Source of the DNA: a virus
IMG/VR virus record: IMGVR_UViG_3300036770_005426
Span: 1-24,063 of that record
DNA length: 24,063 bases
Direction: 5' to 3' (one strand)
The notes below the pieces were generated by a model. The model was not told the DNA's origin. It searched no databases and worked only from the letters and a program-made list of their open reading frames with translations. The position numbers and the translations under genes were made by a program. Below are positions 2,357-24,063 of the stretch, piece after piece. Within the stretch, counting starts at the first letter, position 1; each line of letters opens with the position of its first letter.

Positions 2357-3322
2357 TTACAAATTTGTGGGATTCTTCGGAGTATACATAAAAAAATCAG
2401 AAAATTCTGGATTTTCCGTTAGTTCTGCCGGCAATAAATCATTCGAAACTAGTACCAATATAGTTCCGGACTCTCCACTCATCGACTCTCTGCCTGGATA
2501 TGGATCTACGTCAAGACTGTCCAAAAATTCCTGACTATTATAGCTTTTCGTTGTTAAAAACCCATATGTCTCGTCTCTATGAGTAAATGCGTTAAGCTTC
2601 TCTCTTCTTCGTTGGCTATTGCCTATCCAAGAAAAATGCCAACCCATATCTTCGATTCGTTTACCATCCTGAACCAAATACTGAATATCAAGAGGGCAGT
2701 ATAAATTTTTAAACGCGGATGACCTAATATTTCCAACTTTTGTTCTGCTCAAATGTTGTTTTGTACAAATAAACATTGCTCCGTCCCAAGGTTTTGGACG
2801 TAAGGGATCTTTGTAGTATATTCTTAGATTTGCCTTTCCTTCCATATACATGAGAGGAATCTTAATAACAAAGTCTGTACGGGCCGAAACAAAATTTGTT
2901 ATAAAGTCTAAATTTTTTGGATTAATAATTTCGTCTATGTCGCTTACAATTATAAATGCATCATCGTCTATGAGATTCAAAACATTATGTATTCCATTTT
3001 TTTGCATTCGCTCTCGCGCGCGAGCCTTGAAAGAATGCATGTTTTTGTTTTCATATGAATTAAATATGTCGATACTGAGAACATCCAAATGTTCATCATC
3101 TGGTATCTCATTAGCGATTATTATAAATTTTTCCAAGGGAAGACCAAATTCAATAATTCGATCTTTCACTTTATATGGAATAGGATCTCCCAGACTCGTT
3201 CGACTCGATTCGCATATTACGAACTTATGTACATAATCTTTCAATATGCTATATCTAAGTTTTAGCATTTCTTGACCGGTTGGATCATAATACGTAAAAT
3301 AATCAAATATTTTCTTGTTCAT
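2357..3322 (-). CDS. GT17-like glycosyltransferase
   Basis: A 321-residue protein resembling glycosyltransferase family 17, the family of eukaryotic MGAT3 (bisecting GlcNAc transferase), which also occurs in bacteria and large viruses. The family pattern is visible in order: IFDYFTYYDPTGQEMLKLRY at the N-terminus; VICESSRTSLGDPIPY (about 35-50); the acidic SDIDEI (127-132), probably the metal/nucleotide-sugar-binding site; PWDGAMF (178-184); and MGWHFSWIG (226-234). No signal peptide or membrane helix is seen, so it should act in the infected cell's cytoplasm. It starts 2 bases after the last base of the preceding GT2-type stop codon, with AGGA at the end of that gene as ribosome site, implying translational coupling. 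Donor and acceptor are unknown. It could modify fibre proteins, host surface glycans or DNA. Confidence 0.8.
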   Translation of the reverse strand: MNKKIFDYFTYYDPTGQEMLKLRYSILKDYVHKFVICESSRTSLGDPIPYKVKDRIIEFGLPLEKFIIIANEIPDDEHLDVLSIDIFNSYENKNMHSFKARARERMQKNGIHNVLNLIDDDAFIIVSDIDEIINPKNLDFITNFVSARTDFVIKIPLMYMEGKANLRIYYKDPLRPKPWDGAMFICTKQHLSRTKVGNIRSSAFKNLYCPLDIQYLVQDGKRIEDMGWHFSWIGNSQRRREKLNAFTHRDETYGFLTTKSYNSQEFLDSLDVDPYPGRESMSGESGTILVLVSNDLLPAELTENPEFSDFFMYTPKNPTNL

Positions 3323-3323
3323 A

Positions 3324-4697
3324 TTAAAATCCTGTGTGCTTGAATCTCATGAAATCCAAATCAAAGTCCGAATGCTCCTCGCCATTAAATGGAGTTTTAA
3401 AAATATTTAATTGTCTCCAAGAAGGTCCCCACTTTTTCATAAAATATTTATTTTCGTTGTGCCATCTAGATCGATACATTTTCTCTTTCATTTGACCGCT
3501 ATCATCGCTTCTCCAAGTTTGAGATCCGGTTTGCGAATAATCATTTGTCCCTCCGTGCAAATATGGAGTCGTACAAAACTCTCTTTTTATTGGATTTGGA
3601 TCATTTAGAATTCTGAAAAAATAATCCAAGTCTTCACAATATGCGGGATATAAATTTTCATCGAACAGACCATATTTTTTCAATGCAAAATCTTTTATTA
3701 GAAAACATTCAAATCCTCCTATATCATGACCTCCTAGAGAGCAATGAACTATTCCTACCTCAGGGTCCTGAGATTTTTTGACCATTTCTTCTAAAAACCC
3801 TGGAGTAAATTCAATATCGTTTGTCGCCAATATCCAATATGGAGAAGTTAGAAAACTTTTAAAAACGAGATTGAATGATCCAGGAACTCCAAGATTTGAT
3901 GGAAGATGCGTGACATGAAACTTCTTGATAAAATTATGGGGCGTTTCAACAAGATCATTTAATTCTTTTGTTATTTCTCCACGACCATTATTGTTGATTA
4001 TGAAAAAATTGTCAATAGGATAGTCAATGCTGTTGATAAGTCTGCGAAGCCAATGTACTCCGTTTACTATAGGAACTCCCATCACCGGAATACTTTTTTC
4101 AAATATTATTTCTAGATTTAATTTTTTTGCAGTATCCATTATGTAATTCTTATCGTTCAGCGATAATTTATTCCAATATTCATCGTTATTACAAAGAGTT
4201 GAATACGTATCCATACACTCCTTAACTTTCCCCATGTACCAAGAGGATTTGGCCTTCAGTAATAATAAGTCATGTTTTCCTTTATATTCTAAAATATCAC
4301 AGACGAAAACGTCTTCTTGTAATAGAGAAAGTGCTAAGGAAGAAAAAGTATAACATTCGCAATATTTTTGCTGACTTTCATAAAATTTGGCCATGTAGAA
4401 ATATGCTTCAGGTCTTTCTGGACATAAAGTAATTGCCTGTGACAACATACTTTTCGTACTGGCATCTCGATTTTTTTGTAAATCAAAACACTTGGCTGCA
4501 TATAGTAAACATTTATATGCACTTTGATCTGGATGATAATTTTTTTCCTGATATATCTCTGCCGCTCTAAGAAAGAAAGAAATCGCCGCGGCAGTTTGGC
4601 CAATATTGTAGTATTGAAGAGCTAGATTATAATTTTTTTCTGGATTGTCACAATCAAGAGAGTAATCAACCAATGTAGTTTGAAAAATATTATCCAT
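3324..4697 (-). CDS. TPR plus GT2-type glycosyltransferase
   Basis: A 457-residue two-part protein. Residues about 20-170 are helical with TPR-like repeats, for example NLALQYYNIGQTAAAISFFL and EAYFYMAKFYESQQ. Residues about 203-395 look like a GT-A (family 2) transferase: MGVPIVNGVHWLRRLINSID opens the fold, NLGVPGSFN (268-276) follows, then ATNDIEF (291-297) where a DxD-like acidic site is expected, and CEDLDYFFRI (354-363) as the catalytic acidic motif. The start codon overlaps the last 8 bases of the upstream propeller gene (ATGGATAA), and GT17 follows directly, so the three genes form one translationally coupled cassette. TPR domains fused to transferases often bind a protein partner (as in O-GlcNAc transferase), which suggests, without proving, a protein acceptor. 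Confidence 0.78.
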   Translation of the reverse strand: MDNIFQTTLVDYSLDCDNPEKNYNLALQYYNIGQTAAAISFFLRAAEIYQEKNYHPDQSAYKCLLYAAKCFDLQKNRDASTKSMLSQAITLCPERPEAYFYMAKFYESQQKYCECYTFSSLALSLLQEDVFVCDILEYKGKHDLLLLKAKSSWYMGKVKECMDTYSTLCNNDEYWNKLSLNDKNYIMDTAKKLNLEIIFEKSIPVMGVPIVNGVHWLRRLINSIDYPIDNFFIINNNGRGEITKELNDLVETPHNFIKKFHVTHLPSNLGVPGSFNLVFKSFLTSPYWILATNDIEFTPGFLEEMVKKSQDPEVGIVHCSLGGHDIGGFECFLIKDFALKKYGLFDENLYPAYCEDLDYFFRILNDPNPIKREFCTTPYLHGGTNDYSQTGSQTWRSDDSGQMKEKMYRSRWHNENKYFMKKWGPSWRQLNIFKTPFNGEEHSDFDLDFMRFKHTGF

Positions 4698-5676
4698 TTA
4701 AAAATATATCCTCAATGATATTTTCGGGACATTCGAGAACAAACGCACAGTTGTCTTGAAATCCAAAAGAAATCAGATACTTATTTTCCCATTTTGTCAT
4801 TCCACCGCAAAATTCGATGCTGCCGCCGAGAAAAGAAAATTCTTTTGATTTCTTTATCATGGTCCACTCCGAATCCCAGAAAATAAATCTGTGTCTATAT
4901 TTTCCATTTTTGCGGCCGGCAGGGCTATTGTACAAATCTACCTCATGAGTTATGCAAAAGCGTATTCCATTTTTCCAGGGAACTACGTGAGAAGATCCTC
5001 TCAAATCCCTCTCAAATCCTAAGTGCCTATTATCAACAAACGCCGTTCTAATTGTTTTTTTGTTTTCTATATCGGCTTTGACCACTTCTGTTTCTGTGCA
5101 CCATTTTACAAATTCATATGGCTTATCGACAACTGGCATCCAATTTTTCTCACAATAGGATTCAGCGTCATTTAAAACGGGAATTCTGTATCTAGATATT
5201 TCTTCTACCGAATCTTCTTTAAGATCCAGCTGTGATAATTCCATTCGCCCCTCACCATTTGGGGTGGTATCTCGTCTCACTCCACAAATATAAAGATTGC
5301 CATTCCATCTAAAGAGTCTGCAATCTTCCAATCCTATAAAGTTCCATGCAGGAGTGGTGTTGAACTTAGACATATCAATTTTCAATATTTTTTTTATCGA
5401 TATATCTTCGTTTAATAGCAAAAGATAATTTGTTGTAGTCAATGTCCAATCATTTTCTGGATGTACATATATGAGTGGGCCCCATTCGTGTTCAAAAATA
5501 CTTTTTTCGGAATGAAAAAGGGTTACCTGGCAATGTCGAACAACCGCCATGAGTTGTCCGTTATCATTGAATATAGAGGGGTTGAAGGTGCCGGTGCCAT
5601 TTGTTAAGTTGGATGGAATTATCAGAGGCTTAATTTTTCCTGCACCAGATTCTAAAACTCTTTTAACAAAATTCAT
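4690..5676 (-). CDS. GH130/GH43-like five-bladed beta-propeller protein
   Basis: A 328-residue soluble protein with features of the GH130/GH43-type propeller superfamily: GTFNPSIFNDNGQ (29-41), GLEDCRLFRWNGNLYICG (115-132), EKNWMPV (176-182), LRGSSHVVPW (225-234), THEVDLY (243-249) and GGSIEFCGGM (284-293). The acidic and His residues in these motifs sit where such enzymes hold sugar and phosphate or the catalytic acid. Similar proteins lie beside glycosyltransferases in bacteria and large viruses. GH130 members are mannoside phosphorylases or hydrolases, but the exact reaction here cannot be called. It heads the three-gene sugar cassette and overlaps the next gene by 8 bases. A late-promoter-like AATAAATA ends 36 bases before its ATG. 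It could also be a non-catalytic glycan-binding propeller. Confidence 0.6.
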   Translation of the reverse strand: MNFVKRVLESGAGKIKPLIIPSNLTNGTGTFNPSIFNDNGQLMAVVRHCQVTLFHSEKSIFEHEWGPLIYVHPENDWTLTTTNYLLLLNEDISIKKILKIDMSKFNTTPAWNFIGLEDCRLFRWNGNLYICGVRRDTTPNGEGRMELSQLDLKEDSVEEISRYRIPVLNDAESYCEKNWMPVVDKPYEFVKWCTETEVVKADIENKKTIRTAFVDNRHLGFERDLRGSSHVVPWKNGIRFCITHEVDLYNSPAGRKNGKYRHRFIFWDSEWTMIKKSKEFSFLGGSIEFCGGMTKWENKYLISFGFQDNCAFVLECPENIIEDIFLNG

Positions 5677-15645: not shown

Positions 15646-16788
15646 CTATGTGTCATCATATGTTGTTACTGAATATATTAATCTTATTCCGATCAGTCGA
15701 GCGTCTGCATTTAATGTATCGCTTCCGTCAGAGGTGTTTCTCTTAATCTGGAAGTATACAATATCTCCTTCTGCTGGGCTTCCCGCAATTGTTATCGCGG
15801 AACTTTCTGGACCTACGTGGACATCGTTTGCGGCAATGAAGGTATCGGTAGATGTTTGTTCAGCGCCAAATGCGGCATCTATTGGATCATCATTGGATAT
15901 TGCAACCGCCTGAACTGCCCAGACTACTCCACCGCTTCCAGATCCTGCTGTCCAATAAGGAACAAACGTGACATTATTGCTTTGTTCATTCCAACCTTTC
16001 GGGAATGCCACGGTAAATTGAGCAAATTCCTGAGTGGTCGTATCAAAATCCAATGTTCTATTCATGACTTTATTTGTGCTGGATTCAGTTGTGGATGATC
16101 CCGCTCCGGTGGTTGTTCTTGTTATCATTGCCGTGGCAGGAACCCAGATTGTTGCTTTTCCAGAAGTAGGGCCAGATGTACCTGTTGTTCCTTGGATTCC
16201 TTGTCTTCCTTGTATTCCTTGTCTTCCTTGTATTCCTTGAGTACCTTGGGCCCCATTGGACCCAGAAGATCCTGACGTACCTTGTATTCCTTGAGTACCT
16301 TGGGCCCCATTGGACCCAGAAGATCCTGACGTACCTTGTATTCCTTGAGTACCTTGGGCCCCATTAGACCCAGAAGATCCTGACGTACCTTGTCTTCCTT
16401 GTATTCCTTGAGTACCTTGGGCCCCATTGGACCCAGAAGATCCTGACGTACCTTGTCTTCCTTGTATTCCTTGAGTACCTTGGGCCCCATTGGACCCAGA
16501 AGATCCTGACGTACCTTGTATTCCTTGTATTCCTTGAGTGCCTTGTGCACTGCCGGCCACGCCTTGTGTGCCTTGGGTGCCTGCGCCTATTATTCCTTGT
16601 ACGCCTTGAACTCCCTGTACGCCTTGAATTCCACCATATGGAAGATTATTCCAATTATTTACTCCATCGCCGAGTTTAAATTGTTTTAAAGTGGTGTCGA
16701 TTGCCATTTCTCCGTTGGCGAGAATGGGGTTGTTGCTAGACCATTCACTTGTGGTACCTCTTCTTAATTGAAATTGAATAAACGGCAT
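15646..16788 (-). CDS. Collagen-like fibre with Mtd_N-like start (380 aa)
   Basis: Three parts are visible. Residues 1-52 (FIQFQLRRGTTSEW, NPILANGEMAIDTT, FKLGDGVNNWNNLPYG) are an Mtd_N-like domain. Residues about 53-211 are uninterrupted Gly-X-Y, including five copies of an 18-residue unit [18 protein letters not shown], some with an extra RQG triplet. Residues about 212-380 form a C-terminal domain (KATIWVPATAMITR, FAQFTVAFPKGWNEQ, DTFIAANDVHVGPESSAIT, SPAEGDIVYFQIKR). I recall that domain type from many phage and prophage proteins, without an assigned activity. The ATG follows directly on the TAA of the 1835-residue fibre, and its ribosome site GGAGGAG is inside that gene's last codons, so translation is coupled. 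It is probably a trimeric fibre carrying a globular head. Confidence 0.85.
   Translation of the reverse strand: MPFIQFQLRRGTTSEWSSNNPILANGEMAIDTTLKQFKLGDGVNNWNNLPYGGIQGVQGVQGVQGIIGAGTQGTQGVAGSAQGTQGIQGIQGTSGSSGSNGAQGTQGIQGRQGTSGSSGSNGAQGTQGIQGRQGTSGSSGSNGAQGTQGIQGTSGSSGSNGAQGTQGIQGTSGSSGSNGAQGTQGIQGRQGIQGRQGIQGTTGTSGPTSGKATIWVPATAMITRTTTGAGSSTTESSTNKVMNRTLDFDTTTQEFAQFTVAFPKGWNEQSNNVTFVPYWTAGSGSGGVVWAVQAVAISNDDPIDAAFGAEQTSTDTFIAANDVHVGPESSAITIAGSPAEGDIVYFQIKRNTSDGSDTLNADARLIGIRLIYSVTTYDDT
16231..16515 (-). repeat. Tandem 54/63-bp array in the 380-aa collagen-like fibre
   Basis: Five near-perfect copies share the core GGGCCCCATTGGACCCAGAA (plus-strand reading), starting at 16248, 16302, 16356, 16419 and 16482. 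Spacing is therefore 54, 54, 63 and 63 bases. The third copy has ATTAGA instead of ATTGGA. The 9-base difference is one extra Gly-X-Y triplet (RQG). All units keep the reading frame. Confidence 0.93.
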
Positions 16789-19700
16789 TTATACTACTCC
16801 TCCGCAATCGAAAACGGGTCCATATGAATAAGAATTTGAAGGAACTCCCCCATCCAATATATATGCACTAGTTGTCCCCTGAATCCCTTGAGTTCCTTGA
16901 GTGCCCAGGCTTCCCAGAGTTCCTTGAATGCCCTGTAGGCCTGTTGTTCCTTGTCTTCCTTGTATACCTTGTATACCTTGAGTGCCTTGAGATCCAGTTG
17001 AACCAGTTGAACCTGTTGTTCCTTGGGTACCTTGTGAACCAGTTGATCCTGTTGATCCTGTTGATCCTTGGACACCTTGTCTTCCTTGTATACCTTGGAT
17101 TCCTTGGGTACCTTGTGATCCTGCTGAACCAGTTGAACCTGTTGTTCCTTGGGTACCTTGAGATCCAGTTGAACCAGTAGAACCTGTTGTTCCTTGGGTA
17201 CCTTGTGAACCAGTTGAACCTGTTGTTCCTTGGGTACCTTGTGAACCAGTAGAACCTGTTGCACCAGTTGATCCTTGGATGCCTTGTGTTCCTTGTATAC
17301 CTTGGATTCCTTGGGTACCTTGTGATCCTGCTGAACCAGTAGAACCTGTTGTTCCTTGGGTACCTTGAGATCCAGTTGAACCTGTTGCACCAGTTGATCC
17401 TTGGATGCCTTGTGTTCCTTGTATACCTTGGATTCCTTGGGTACCTTGTGATCCTGCTGAACCAGTTGCACCAGTTGTTCCTTGTCTTCCTTGTATTCCT
17501 TGGATACCTTGTGATCCCGTTGCACCTGTTGTTCCTTGAGTGCCTTGGGATCCCGTTGCACCAGTTGCACCAGTTGTTCCTTGTATTCCTTGGATACCTT
17601 GTGATCCTGTTGCACCTGTTGTTCCTTGAGTGCCTTGAGATCCAGTTGCACCGGTTGAGCCTGTTGTTCCTTGGGTGCCTTGTCTTCCTTGTACGCCTTG
17701 GATTCCTTGGGTACCTTGAGATCCAGTAGAACCAGTTGTTCCTTGAGTGCCTTGGGATCCAGTTGCACCGGTTGAGCCTGTTGTTCCTTGGGTACCTTGT
17801 GAACCAGTAGAACCTGTTGCACCTGTTGATCCTTGGATGCCTTGTGTTCCTTGTATACCTTGGATTCCTTGGGTACCTTGGGTACCTTGAGATCCAGTTG
17901 CACCAGTTGCACCTGTTGTTCCTTGGGTGCCTTGTGATCCCGTTGCACCAGTTGTTCCTTGGGTACCTTGTGAACCAGTAGAACCTGTTGCACCTGTTGA
18001 TCCTTGGGTTCCTTGTATACCTTGGATTCCTTGAGTTCCTTGAGATCCAGTTGAACCGGTTGTTCCTTGGGTACCTTGTCTTCCTTGAATTCCTTGGATA
18101 CCTTGGGAACCAGTGTTTCCTTGTAGACCTAAAGTTCCTTGGATACCTTGTGAACCGATCGTACCTTGTATTCCTTGTGCGCCCTGTTCGCCAGCTTGGC
18201 CAGTGGCGCCAGCAAGATTGACGGCCCAGTCTGAATATGTTCCGCTTCCGCTTGTAACAGAAACATTAACATTCATTGTCCCTGTTGTGCTGTTATAGCT
18301 GAGAACGGCTCCTTCCATGAAATTCAGTTCGGTATTTGCAATCTTTGCAGTTTGCGAAACAGAGTATGCAAGACCCGTGTTTACAGTTAGTGACTTTACC
18401 CCAGTTCCGATTAATAGAGATGTGTTGCTAGTTGTTTGGTATCTATCACCGCTAGCACCTAAGGTGCCTTGAATTCCTTGTGCCCCTATCCCTCCTTGGA
18501 CGCCTTGCGTGCCCTGAAAGCCTGAAACCCCTTGAACACCCTGAACACCTTGTGTGCCTATGTTTCCGGTGCGAGAAAAATTCAAAACAATTTTAGAATC
18601 GTTTGATGGAGGAGAGCCGGTGCCTCCTGTTACGGGAATTTTATAATATCCAGATGCAACGGTCACACTTCCTGTAATACTGAAAATATTTGTTACAGTG
18701 CTTGACGAATCATTTCCTATTATGTAGAGATAACCCTTTTGCCCTGGATTTGTACTATCGTCCCAAGTATTATACCAAGATGTTTGATCATTTGATAAAA
18801 AGTCTAAATTATCGATATAAATCTCGGTGACAGACTCGATGGTAGAATTGTTATATCTGATGGTTCCAAGACCAGGATCACTGTCGTTTATACTTGTGGA
18901 GAAGTTGTATAAGGCGCCACCTTTGTTTCCAGTGATACCAATTGTTCCTTGAGTTCCTTGAGATCCAGTTGAACCGGTTGTTCCTTGGGTACCTTGTCTT
19001 CCTTGTACACCTTGAGTTCCTTGAGTGCCTTGAGATCCAGTTAAACCTTGTATGCCTTGAATGCCTTGCGATCCGGTTGCCCCAGTCGTACCTTGAGTGC
19101 CTTGTGATCCGGTTGCACCTGTTGATCCTGTTGATCCTTGAGTACCTTGTACGCCTTGGATTCCTTGAGTACCTTGAGAACCAGTTGCACCTGTTGTTCC
19201 TTGTCTTCCTTGTACGCCTTGGATTCCTTGGGTACCTTGAGATCCAGTTGCACCTGTTGCACCTGTTGTTCCTTGGGTACCTTGAGATCCAGTTGCACCT
19301 GTTGCACCTGTTGTTCCTTGAGTACCTTGAGATCCAGTTGCACCTGTTGCACCTGTTGTTCCTTGGGTACCTTGTGAACCAGTTGCACCGGTTGAGCCTG
19401 TTGTTCCTTGGGTGCCTTGTGAACCAGTAGAACCTGTTGCACCTGTTGTTCCTTGAGTTCCTTGAGATCCAGTTGCACCAGTTGTTCCTTGGGTGCCTTG
19501 TGAACCAGTAGAACCTGTTGCACCTGTTGTTCCTTGAGTGCCTTGTACGCCTTGGATTCCTTGGGTACCTTGAGATCCAGTAGAACCAGTTGCACCTGTT
19601 GTTCCTTGAGTGCCTTGAGATCCCGTTGCACCTGTTGTTCCTTGAGAGCCTTGGGGACCTTGTCTTCCTTGTATTCCCTGAGTACCTTGAGATCCTGTTG

Positions 19701-22296
19701 TTCCTTGGATTCCTTGAGTACCTTGAGAACCAGTTGCACCAGTTGTTCCTTGAGTACCTTGTGATCCCGTTGCACCTGTTGCGCCTGTTATTCCTTGAAT
19801 ACCTTCTCTTCCTTGTACACCTTGGATTCCTTGAATTCCTTGTGATCCCGTTGCACCTGTTGTTCCTTGAGTACCTTGAGATCCGGTAGAACCAGTTGCA
19901 CCTGTTGTTCCTTGGGTTCCTTGGGATCCCGTTGCACCAGTTGCACCTGTTGTTCCTTGGGTACCTTGTGAACCAGTAGAACCTGTTGCACCTGTTGATC
20001 CTTGGATGCCTTGTGAACCAGTAGAACCAGTTGCACCTGTTGTTCCTTGGGTACCTTGTCTTCCTTGTACGCCTTGGATTCCTTGGGTACCTTGAGATCC
20101 AGTTACACCTGTTGCACCTGTTGTTCCTTGAGTGCCTTGTGATCCAGTTGCACCAGTTGTTCCTTGGGTACCTTGTGATCCAGTTGATCCTTGGGTTCCC
20201 TGAACTCCCTGTCTTCCCTGTACTCCTTGAATGCCTTGTGATCCAGTTGATCCTTGGGTTCCCTGAACTCCCTGTCTTCCCTGTACTCCTTGAATGCCTT
20301 GTATTCCTTGAAGTCCCCCATATGGCAATAAATTCCATGCAGTAACGCCGTCGCCTATTTTAAACAATCTTGGATTTGTTGTCGTATCAATACCAATTTC
20401 ACCATTGGCAAGAACAGTATTTGCAGTAGACCACTGTGAAGTTGTTCCGCGCCTAAATTGAAATTTGATTGTCTCAGGAGAATCAAATTCTCCAAGATCT
20501 ATTCCAGGGCCGTAGTCATAGACATCATCTGGATCGCCGCCATCAAAAATGTACGCACTAGTATTTCCTATTGCGCCCTGAATTCCTTGTGCGCCTTGAG
20601 TTCCTTGATTTCCCGCTGCTCCTTGTGTTCCTTGTATTCCTTGTGTTCCTTGTGCACCAGTAGCGCCTGGTGCACCAGAAATATTAATTGCCCAGTCGGA
20701 GTAGGTTCCCGATCCTCCTGTGGAGGTAATAGTAAGAGTTAAGGACGTTGAAGAGTAACTTGTGACAGTACCAATCATAAAATTGTTGGGATTACTAGAA
20801 GAAGATATTTTGGCTTCCTGGCCAGGTGAATATGCAAGTCCAGAATCAACTGTAAAAGTTTTTGAGCCAGTTCCTATTGTATGAGATGTGGCACTAGTTG
20901 TTTGATATCTGTCTCCAGCAGTACCTGTTAGTCCTTGTGTTCCTTGTATACCTTGAGATCCAGTTGTTCCTTGTCTTCCCTGAACGCCTTGGATTCCTTG
21001 GGTACCTTGTGAACCAGTGTTACCTTGCAGACCTAAAGTTCCTTGGGCTCCTTGAGAACCAGTTGTTCCTTGTCTTCCCTGAACGCCTTGAGTTCCTTGG
21101 ATACCTTGTGAACCAGTATTTCCTTGTAGGCCTAACGTTCCTTGAGTCCCTTGTGATCCAGTCGCACCTGTTGCACCTGTTGTTCCTTGAGTACCTTGTG
21201 ATCCAGTCGCACCTGTTGCACCTGTTGTTCCTTGGGTACCTTGTGAACCAGTTGATCCTGTTGATCCTGTTGATCCTGTTGTTCCTTGGGTACCTTGTGA
21301 ACCAGTTGATCCTGTTGTTCCTTGGGTTCCTTGGGATCCCGTTGCACCAGTTGCACCTGTTGTTCCTTGTCTTCCTTGTATTCCTTGGGTACCTTGTGAT
21401 CCCGTTGCACCTGTTGTTCCTTGGGTTCCTTGGGATCCCGTTGCACCAGTTGCACCAGTTGTTCCTTGTCTTCCTTGTATTCCTTGGATACCTTGTGATC
21501 CCGTTGCACCTGTTGTTCCTTGAGTGCCTTGAGATCCAGTAGAACCAGTTGCACCTGTTGTTCCTTGTCTTCCTTGTATTCCTTGGATACCTTGTGATCC
21601 CGTTGCACCTGTTGTTCCTTGAGTGCCTTGGGATCCCGTTGCACCAGTTGCACCAGTTGTTCCTTGAGTGCCTTGGGATCCCGTTGCACCTGTTGTTCCT
21701 TGGGTACCTTGGGATCCAGTAGAACCAGTTGCACCTGTTGTTCCTTGAGTGCCTTGAGATCCAGTAGAACCAGTTGAACCTGTTGTTCCTTGGGTTCCTT
21801 GGGATCCAGTAGAACCCGTTGCGCCGGTGGATCCTTGAATACCTTGTCTTCCTTGGACTCCTTGAGCACCTTGTGATCCAGTTGCACCAGTTCCACCAGT
21901 TGTTCCTTGAGTGCCTTGAGAACCAGTTGAGCCTGTTGTTCCTTGTCTTCCTTGTATTCCTTGAGCACCTTGTACACCAGTTGCGCCTTGAGGTCCTGAG
22001 GACCCTTGAGTACCTTGCGGTCCCTCACTTCCTTGCACTCCTTGAATTCCTTGTACTCCAGATCCTCCAGCAGTCTTTAATACCAAGTCAGAATTTGCGG
22101 TGCCTTCGGCAAACCAATATTCAACAATTCCGCTTTCTGTCTGAATACCAACAGTTAGACCTTTGTAGCGCCTTCCCGGAACAACACCAGCTAAAGCATC
22201 TGCTGTACTACTCCATGCAATACTGCCGTTGCTGTACCGATCATCTACTGGTCGATTTGCATCAACTTTTATATTATCCGAGAAATAAACGGGCAT
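16789..22296 (-). CDS. Giant collagen-like fibre, apparently two fused fibre genes (1835 aa)
   Basis: Domains in order: 1-78, a globular start ([40 protein letters not shown]) seen at the head of other phage collagen-like fibres; 79-461, Gly-X-Y; 462-540, a DRYQTTS beta module; 541-577, Gly-X-Y; 579-606, the tail motif TSAYIFDGG...YGPGIDLG; 609-660, an internal Mtd_N-like domain ([28 protein letters not shown]); 661-1123, Gly-X-Y; 1125-1243, a unique domain ([26 protein letters not shown]); 1244-1283, Gly-X-Y; 1284-1362, a second DRYQTTS module; 1363-1807, Gly-X-Y; 1808-1835, a second TSAYILDGG tail. Tail motif followed by Mtd_N in mid-protein indicates fusion of two genes. Gly-X-Y triplets carry almost only Gln or Thr at Y. 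The ribosome site is AAGGAAAT. It probably forms a very long trimeric fibre. Confidence 0.9.
17474..17583 (-). repeat. 110-bp exact direct repeat, copy 1
   Basis: This segment is identical base for base to 21557-21666, which lies 4083 bases away. The distance is a multiple of three, so exchange between copies would remove 1361 codons in frame. It encodes Gly-X-Y triplets, including GRQG flanked by GTTGATG. Confidence 0.85.
20176..20301 (-). repeat. Two-copy 63-bp tandem duplication
   Basis: The 63-base unit starting TGATCCAGTTGATCCTTGGG (plus-strand reading) at 20176 is repeated at 20239 without visible change. It encodes two copies of a 21-residue unit, [20 protein letters not shown] in cyclic register. 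This is a recent in-frame expansion just after the internal Mtd_N-like domain. Confidence 0.88.
20476..20495 (-). other. Relic gene junction inside the 1835-aa fibre
   Basis: On the minus strand TTGGAGAA (20495-20488) keeps the form of the ribosome sites in front of the 824- and 1059-residue fibres. Codon TCT (20481-20479) sits where the intact junction at 16789 has TAA, and CCT (20478-20476) sits where it has ATG. Both flanks align without gaps: a DxG tail codes on one side and I-K/Q-F-Q on the other. The neighbouring gene pair therefore gives a template for the ancestral stop/start. Confidence 0.75.
21557..21666 (-). repeat. 110-bp exact direct repeat, copy 2
   Basis: Partner of 17474-17583, in the same orientation and frame, in the first collagen run of the same gene. 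Such long exact identity in a low-complexity region points to recent duplication or conversion, not only shared codon habits. Confidence 0.85.
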
Positions 22297-22314
22297 TAAT
22301 ATGATTTCCTTGTT

Positions 22315-24063
22315 TTAGAATCCAAATTCGTATGGAACAGTTGAAGGAGGTGCAAATCCACTAATATATATTTTATATGTTTGATTACTCCAGTAACCTT
22401 GTGGTGAATTCGCTGTATTTGAAACAGGAGAAACAAAAAATTCTCCAGGGCCGATAGGACCTTTATTTTGAGTAGATCCTTGTTCTCTCCATGTTTTCTT
22501 TTCTGTCGCTGAAGAGATATGAGCAAACCAAAGCCATTTATCAGTCGATCCAAAAGTAATAAACAAGTTTGCGGATGCGTCAGACACAACTTTAGTTGCA
22601 GTACCGGCTTCAATTGCTGCCACAATATTTGAAGCTGTTGGTTGTGAAGAAGTATTTCCATAAAAATAAGGATAAACTCCTGTGACACTAGTGGTGGCGT
22701 TAAACGCCGTACATGCAGCCTGAGGTGCACTAGCTGATCGCACTGCCGCAGTTCTTGTGTCGGTTACTCCTTTATTGTTTTTCTTTGGATCGCCTGCTCC
22801 ATAACTTCCTCTTGCAGTCCATGTTGTAGCTCCCGCGGTTACAACATGCGAAGAAGTATTTTTTCCAGTATAGTCAAAATTTGGATTATTTGGATTTACA
22901 TATCCAAATAGATCAGGAACGTTAGGTACAGATACTATGGTGAGATTTGTATTTGTCTCTAAAGTTGTTCCTCCTCGCAAGAATATAATTTGCGTAAATG
23001 CGTTTGCATCATTTTTTCTGCCTGTGGCAGTTAAGGACTGTGTTACAGTATTTCCGATTTCTTGTGTGGCTGCTAATGCGCCACTGACAGATAGTGTTGG
23101 AATGGTATATGTGGGCAGAATATCCGGAAACAAAATTGTATCCAAAACTTCAACAATATTTTTTGTTTTCCATACTGCCGCATTTGCAATTGGGGCGCCG
23201 CCAACAGCGACACTATTAACAGTATCTTCAATAGAAGTATTATAAATCGTGGATAACACATTTGTTGTTGTGTTGAATTCGAGAGCAGTATTTGCGGCAA
23301 CGGTTATTGTTCCGCTTCCTGATCCTGGAGGACCAGCTGGTCCTTGAGTTCCTTGTACTCCCTGAGTTCCTGTTCCTTCAATACCTTGAACGCCTTGTAC
23401 ACCTTGAGCGCCTGTATTTCCTTGAATGCCTAGAGTTCCTTGGATGCCTTGTGATCCAATTGCTCCAGAAGTTCCTTGTCTTCCTTGTACGCCTTGAGTT
23501 CCTTGAATACCCTGTGAACCACTGGCACCCTGCGCGCCTAGAGTTCCCTGAATTCCCTGAGAACCAGTTGTTCCCTGAATTCCCTGAGAACCTGTATTTC
23601 CTTGAAGTCCAGAAGAACCTGTCGCACCTTGCGTGCCCTGTCTTCCTTGTACACCTTGCGTTCCTTGTGTGCCCTGTGAACCATTGGCTCCCGCAGTACC
23701 TTGTGAACCACTGGCACCCTGCGTGCCTAGAGTTCCTTGAATTCCCTGAGAACCAGTTGTACCCTGTGGGCCTAGCGTTCCTTGTGTACCTTGTGCGCCG
23801 CTCGTTCCCTGAATACCTTGAATACCTTGGTCGCCCTGATCACCTTTTACTCCCGCTGCACCAGCAAGATTGACTTGCCAGGAAGAATAGGTACCACTGC
23901 CGAAAGTACTTGTAACGTTTGCCGTCATTCGTCCGTTGGCCGAATTATACGATACGACAACACCATCCATGTAATTTGCGGAAGTATTGGCAATACGAAC
24001 AGGCTGTGAAACTGAATATGCGAGTCCAGTATTTACATTGAAACTTTTTACTGCAACACTTAT
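22315..24063 (-). CDS. Collagen-like fibre, 5' end outside the window
   Basis: The frame is open to the right edge, and 582 codons plus the stop are visible. The ATG at 23970 is internal: upstream codons read [20 protein letters not shown], the middle of a third copy of the DRYxTTS module, which ends around 23866 (GTYSSWQVNLAG). Gly-X-Y repeats follow (about 23320-23865), with a final GPAGPPG. Then comes a C-terminal domain of about 340 residues: NTALEFNTTTNVLSTIYNTS, AVWKTKNIVEVLDTILFPD, PTYTIPTLSVSG, VTQSLTATGRKNDANAFTQI, DKWLWFAHISS and YWSNQTYKIYISGF. I recall this type of C-terminal domain from uncharacterised phage structural proteins, where it is probably a globular fibre tip. It ends 18 bases before the 1835-residue gene and is probably in the same operon. 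Confidence 0.85.
   Translation of the reverse strand: MSVAVKSFNVNTGLAYSVSQPVRIANTSANYMDGVVVSYNSANGRMTANVTSTFGSGTYSSWQVNLAGAAGVKGDQGDQGIQGIQGTSGAQGTQGTLGPQGTTGSQGIQGTLGTQGASGSQGTAGANGSQGTQGTQGVQGRQGTQGATGSSGLQGNTGSQGIQGTTGSQGIQGTLGAQGASGSQGIQGTQGVQGRQGTSGAIGSQGIQGTLGIQGNTGAQGVQGVQGIEGTGTQGVQGTQGPAGPPGSGSGTITVAANTALEFNTTTNVLSTIYNTSIEDTVNSVAVGGAPIANAAVWKTKNIVEVLDTILFPDILPTYTIPTLSVSGALAATQEIGNTVTQSLTATGRKNDANAFTQIIFLRGGTTLETNTNLTIVSVPNVPDLFGYVNPNNPNFDYTGKNTSSHVVTAGATTWTARGSYGAGDPKKNNKGVTDTRTAAVRSASAPQAACTAFNATTSVTGVYPYFYGNTSSQPTASNIVAAIEAGTATKVVSDASANLFITFGSTDKWLWFAHISSATEKKTWREQGSTQNKGPIGPGEFFVSPVSNTANSPQGYWSNQTYKIYISGFAPPSTVPYEFGF

Follow-up and report, generated by a model that had tools for sequence, protein, structure and literature searches.

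The proteins of the T4 long tail fibre (gp34-gp35-gp36-gp37) are joined end to end, and their domains differ from those described below. In general, the order in which fibre proteins assemble is hard to deduce from phage genomes. Among the closest described systems is Mtd of Bordetella phage BPP-1 (PDB 1yu0-1yu4, 2iou; PF18454), whose N-terminal domain, Mtd_N, is of the same family as the domain analysed here. A putative tail-fibre gene lies just upstream of mtd, and the Mtd trimer is presumably anchored to the tail-fibre protein through its beta-prism (PMC10743442). The Mtd_N protein of phage AXL1, gp44, is encoded next to and after the central hub protein gp43 (PMC9206674). The streptococcal phage hyaluronidases (PDB 2c3f, 6x3m) are trimeric fibres in which an N-terminal domain is followed by the enzymatic part, without a collagen shaft as long as that of the present protein. 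Pelagimyophages and cyanomyophages have a host recognition cluster, and in the former it combines collagen and major-tropism-determinant domains, glycosyltransferases and fibres close to T4-like neck genes (PMC7029224). As far as the accessible part of that account goes, our locus resembles this layout, and neither a tail motif nor a fusion is described there.

The DNA that we analysed (the window, 24,063 nt) is a 24-kb contig from an uncultured T4-like bacterial virus. Genes for T4-like neck and tail proteins (gp13-, gp14- and gp15-like) lie on the minus strand in the left part of the contig. They are followed by genes for glycosyltransferase-like proteins and for two spikes with a pectate-lyase fold, and then by several fibre genes in a row, the largest of which encodes a collagen-like protein of 1835 aa. 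The fibre genes are separated from gp13 by GT17-like and GT2-like (with TPR) glycosyltransferase genes (2357-5676), as reported for the pelagimyophage clusters. Inside the 1835-aa protein, a tail-like motif (hereafter the DGG tail) is directly followed by an Mtd_N domain (Table 1). We consider it likely that this protein arose by fusion of two formerly adjacent T4-like fibre genes, whereby a putative docking joint between DGG tail and Mtd_N became covalent.

Table 1. Positions of the fibre genes and of the parts of the 1835-aa protein in the window.
Feature	Position	Strand	Remark
Collagen-like tail-fibre gene P0001, 1835 aa	16789..22296	-	Pfam Collagen E 1.7e-202
NT1 N-terminal domain, residues 1-76	22069..22296	-	Starts separate genes elsewhere (L083-L098)
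Collagen tract 1, 129 Gly-X-Y triplets, residues 77-463	20908..22068	-	
GDRY globular domain, copy a, residues 461-544	20665..20916	-	
Collagen tract 2, 13 triplets, residues 541-579	20560..20676	-	
Internal DGG tail motif, residues 579-605	20482..20562	-	Putative former gene end
TCT CCT, residues 606-607	20476..20481	-	In register of TAA and ATG
Internal Mtd_N domain, residues 610-659	20320..20469	-	Gene start elsewhere
Collagen tract 3, 156 triplets, residues 661-1128	18913..20316	-	
FS globular domain, residues 1126-1247	18556..18921	-	
GDRY globular domain, copy b, residues 1283-1366	18199..18450	-	
Collagen tract, 149 triplets, residues 1363-1809	16870..18210	-	
C-terminal DGG tail motif, residues 1809-1835	16792..16872	-	
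Intact TAA ATG junction with upstream GGAGG	16786..16791	-	Comparison for the fused junction
Next fibre gene P0002, 380 aa	15646..16788	-	Mtd_N start, collagen, C-terminal domain common to many phages
Preceding fibre gene P0003	22315..24063	-	P3C C-terminal domain, also precedes the NT1 gene in L083-L098

The collagen tracts of the 1835-aa protein comprise 129, 13, 156, 14 and 149 triplets, which places it among the collagen-like phage fibres. The collagen triple helix rises by 0.286 nm per residue; judged from the sequence, the collagen would extend over roughly 0.4 micrometre if all 461 triplets were triple-helical. Exact repeats of 100-119 nt occur within the tracts, the longest between residues ~211 and 1572. 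At the start of the gene, the order of a P3C-ending gene followed by an NT1-starting gene (window 22296-24063) recurs in nearly all of the loci L083-L098 and thus forms a conserved pair.

The internal domain was identified by several comparisons. Pfam Mtd_N (PF18454) matched an 84-aa junction piece with an E value of 1.4e-11 (44.5 bits; curated cut-off 26.3). This match is absent from the full-length Pfam scan of the 1835-aa protein, where it is probably hidden by the repeats. Against an HMM built without it, the internal copy scored 79.3 bits, within the 5-95% range of the N-terminal copies (68.7-92.6). The AlphaFold monomer had a pLDDT of ~72-92 over most of the domain, and a Foldseek comparison of this model with the PDB matched the N-termini of the trimeric phage hyaluronidase (6x3m, E 2.3e-4; 2c3f) and of Mtd (1yu1, probability 0.97; 1yu2). 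The hyaluronidase domain also matches the P0002 copy by sequence, whereas it matches the internal copy by fold. In the same model the DGG tail is of low confidence, and gives docking no support. An N-terminal placement is typical of PF18454 and is that of Mtd, whereas the present domain occupies residues 610-659 of 1835. Mtd also goes together with a diversity-generating retroelement (C-type lectin, reverse transcriptase, variable region); no such element was seen near the window's domain, and Pfam matches to a C-type lectin, a variable repeat or a reverse transcriptase were absent from the main window genes. The other three Mtd_N copies of the window all open genes, in agreement with what the earlier note had said of this domain.

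We compared the internal junction with the real gene junction at the end of the same protein, codon by codon. The former reads GAT (D600, 20497-20499) CTT GGA GAA TTT GAT TCT (20479-20481) CCT (20476-20478) GAG ACA ATC (I610, 20467-20469), and the latter GAT (D1830, 16807-16809) TGC GGA GGA GTA GTA TAA (16789-16791) ATG (16786-16788) CCG TTT ATT (16777-16779). Both run without a gap in one register through the tail and the next 35 residues, with TCT and CCT standing opposite TAA and ATG; five of these six bases differ. The equal spacing and the replacement of TAA by TCT and of ATG by CCT, as noticed earlier, are thus confirmed. The repetition of the tail motif in mid-protein also holds, with its limits corrected to residues 579-605 and 1809-1835 (the earlier note had begun the second copy at 1808, off by one). 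The two copies share 15 of 27 residues and 48 of 81 bases. A tail HMM built without window sequences found only these two sites along the whole protein: the terminal copy at 28.4 bits and the internal one at 16.0 bits, above all of the ~1930 shuffles scored (best 14.9). In the internal tail, the second half-motif has degenerated (DLGE vs DCGG). Its loss would be expected if the covalent link had relaxed the constraint on it, and is compatible with drift also.

The junction lies outside repeat DNA, as the longest repeat is 8 nt in residues 578-612 and 16 nt over residues 571-670. No in-frame ATG, GTG or TTG occurs between residues 561 and 643, and therefore no second start would preserve the Mtd_N domain. 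From the unique DNA at the junction and the lack of an in-frame start, one long product is expected.

We then compared the boundary across ~190 virus loci, 19 loci from bacterial and archaeal genomes and annotated regions of 21 phage isolates. Among about 240 related loci scanned, we counted 100 distinct gene-starting Mtd_N copies, and found the domain in mid-chain only in the window and in three isolate proteins. In Arthrobacter phages BruhMoment (gp36, residues 359-405) and Ranunculus (gp34, residues 296-342) it comes directly behind a DGG tail, as in the window, and a second Mtd_N stands at the N-terminus; their neighbouring genes carry the boundary in split form. Unlike the window protein, these are non-collagen fibres with short one-part tails (IDGGTP, IDGGS), and they bear no fusion annotation. 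In Gordonia phage Yakult, the mid-chain Mtd_N of gp30 (residues 389-432) follows collagen, as in our protein, but no DGG tail stands between. Two further candidates for an internal domain (L211, 152-197; L224, 67-113) proved to begin their genes, with the frame remaining open further upstream, and were excluded from the count.

The earlier note had counted homologues lacking any split form as evidence against a two-gene origin. In fact, the T4-like relatives L003, L004 and L006 have the boundary split between two genes by a stop and a start, as do L005 and many other phages. In L003 and L006, a collagen gene ends in YDGGTPTTDFSVGLNINCGGVT (or a near copy) and a stop, the tail pattern before the stop being DGGTP/DGGRP...NCGGVT. 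The adjacent second gene starts with MAYIQLQFRRGT and continues with collagen and then an FS domain, as after the internal Mtd_N of the window. Genes of this second-half type (Mtd_N, collagen and FS) stand separately in L003, L006 and L114, and NT1 genes do so in L083-L098, so that counterparts of both halves exist as separate genes. A gene corresponding to residues 1-606 and adjoining an Mtd_N gene was not found among the loci compared. The first gene of L003 and L006 has another N-terminal domain than the window protein; separate NT1 genes (L083-L098) end without the motif, and no NT1-type gene was found with a DGG tail at its end and an Mtd_N gene next to it. The near relatives found by gp14 (L205-L210) stop short of the fibre genes or are without the 1835-aa gene, and P0005 as a query for relatives gave no match. 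A zero-gap, same-frame stop and start, as at 16789, was observed in L005 and L032; two genes in this arrangement could be fused by point changes. In a domain tree, the nearest neighbours of the internal copy (P0002, L005, L003, P0004 and L006) were all gene starts, although this tree is poorly resolved (50 columns, few supported forks). A single clade for the internal Mtd_N copies was not rejected (p-AU 0.355).

FS domains also occur in another arrangement. L101-L113 contain single frames of ~4200-4420 aa (e.g. L112:1763-15025) in which collagen tracts alternate with many FS domains; we read them as giant collagen-like fibres.

From the exact register, the split boundary in relatives, the similar fusions in Arthrobacter phages and the gene-starting tree neighbours, we concluded that the earlier suggestion of a two-gene origin is largely right. 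On sequence grounds, gene fusion at the internal junction is well supported, and it likely came about in place, as the stop and start were lost. The first ancestral gene would have comprised residues 1-605 and ended in the DGG tail. The second (607-1835) would have opened with Mtd_N and, as today, ended in a DGG tail meeting the Mtd_N of the next gene; stop and start may have been lost by substitution. The main rival is domain shuffling, by which tail and Mtd_N were imported already joined through recombination between collagen repeats. The collagen tracts do share exact repeats of 100-119 nt, the NT1, GDRY, FS and P2C domains are freely reshuffled among loci, and the exact split parent was not found among the loci compared. 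Nevertheless, we consider this route unlikely, since the joint lies in non-repeat DNA and matches the stop and start in register, with no gap; moreover, a joined form would still be required somewhere.

Two other explanations appear weaker. The mid-chain domain could be an old, independent architecture from which the nearby gene-starting copies were derived by gain of stop and start, and Yakult gp30, with its Mtd_N after collagen and no DGG tail, might be taken as an example. This is very improbable given 100 distinct gene-starting copies against four confirmed mid-chain cases, the gene starts that are nearest to the window copy in the tree, and the terminal-type motif directly preceding it. 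An assembly artefact, in which two genes of a repeat-rich metagenome were joined into a chimera, has to be considered for a single contig with repeats of more than 100 nt within the gene. Such a chimera is extremely unlikely, since residues 571-670, around the joint, are encoded by unique DNA with no repeat longer than 16 nt. At the junction itself only one of six bases agrees with a stop and start, and a single frame stays open on both sides for 1835 codons.

The recurring boundary itself, rather than the fusion, is the larger yield of this comparison, and we found no paper on it in the literature searched. We scored the tail as [DN]GG in the last residues, and took an ORF as preceding an Mtd_N gene when it ended within ~60 nt of the Mtd_N start. 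The tail was present in 32 of 52 such ORFs, compared with 96 of 4836 other ORF ends (2%), an enrichment (odds ratio 79, Fisher p 3e-39) that is uncorrected for kinship and has unreal frames in its background. In total, 47 distinct tails stood beside 90 distinct Mtd_N starts. As these tails form 42 clusters at 60% identity, the association is not one family counted repeatedly. Read from the tail side, Mtd_N follows 43 of 50 tails (four by eye), a figure biased by the choice of tails and loci near Mtd_N. The boundary occurs in T4-like, crAss-like, Arthrobacter, Gordonia, Pseudomonas and Synechococcus phages.

The full consensus of the tail is x-[ILFY]-DGG-x-[AP]-x-x-x-Y-x(5-8)-[IL]-DGG-x, and a short form reads [VI]DGG-[TGS]-[PA] followed by the stop. 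Its carriers preceding an Mtd_N gene are diverse: collagen fibres, the tail hub of Pseudomonas phage Epa19, a tail protein of Xanthomonas phage FoX4, crAss001 gp24 (before gp25), gp09 of Synechococcus phage S-CBS1 (before gp10) and proteins of 65-70 aa in Arthrobacter phages. Phage Pureglobe5 has a serial relay in which gp41 ends in ..LIDGGTP, gp42 starts with Mtd_N and ends in ..TIDGGTP, and gp43 starts with Mtd_N again. Before mtd of BPP-1, we observed only a weak tail-like end (DLGGIA). The literature searched holds no paper that names the DGG motif, tails like DGGTP or the pairing of DGG tail and Mtd_N in phages.

One family is an exception to this pairing. In L008, L009, L010, L015, L020 and L022 (near 4500-5540), proteins of ~110-130 aa end in a DGG tail, ..LLDGGEIGN, and an Mtd_N start was not found within 250 nt of them; in L015 the next frame begins MAGHAALHGNVNDALEAIQ.

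Alternatively, the DGG codons might be kept because the following gene needs them for ribosome binding, so that the tail would mark coupled translation, with no docking peptide involved. In 21 of the 47 tails, the last DGG codons, close to the following start, indeed include a GGAGG-like core, but 26 have none. The first DGG is too far upstream of the next start and rarely contains the core (4 of 20), and only 2% of the other ORF ends carry the motif. DGG tails make use of all four Gly codons. As the Gly codons vary and fewer than half of the tails form a ribosome site, the constraint looks protein-level, and we regard the translational explanation as quite improbable.

The most plausible mechanism is a docking of trimers, in which the trimeric Mtd_N beta-prism of one fibre segment would receive the three DGG tails of the segment before it. 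Segments docked in this way would join end to end, in gene order. The earlier note had treated Mtd_N as a general anchor; the comparison suggests, in addition, that its partner is probably the DGG tail carried by the protein before it. Fused gene pairs are a classical hint of protein interaction, and partners that dock C-terminus to N-terminus can fuse with little harm because both ends are already close. In the present phage, plug and socket would be adjacent in one chain and the first joint thus covalent. The product would be a single trimer with one long collagen shaft and a rigid trimeric node at residues 580-660, its first segment running NT1, collagen, GDRY, collagen, DGG and its second Mtd_N, collagen, FS, GDRY, collagen, DGG. 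P0002 would then be the next segment, still separate, docking at the end of the 1835-aa fibre.

We propose tentatively that DGG tail and Mtd_N may form a widespread plug-and-socket by which tailed phages of many groups chain their appendage proteins in the order of the genes, the window and the Arthrobacter proteins being natural fusions that expose the pairing. If so, a signature of 10-25 residues would identify the docking partner of an appendage protein, in isolates as well as in metagenomes, and would help to explain the exchange of segments between fibres of unrelated phages. The window would offer a natural covalent version of the joint, convenient for structure determination.

Finally, we noted the following on the neighbouring sequences. 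The C-terminal domain of P0002 (15646-16170) recurs in at least 164 virus stretches at up to 75% identity and appears to be a widely exchanged fibre domain with no Pfam name. The contig L205, which the gp14 search indicated to be the same phage (100%), is identical to the window over positions 1-1561 and extends it. Its T4-like large terminase frame (L205:2521-5667) is 1049 aa long, compared with 639 aa in L206 (L206:2610-4526), which is 94% identical; the additional length is possibly an intein or another insert.
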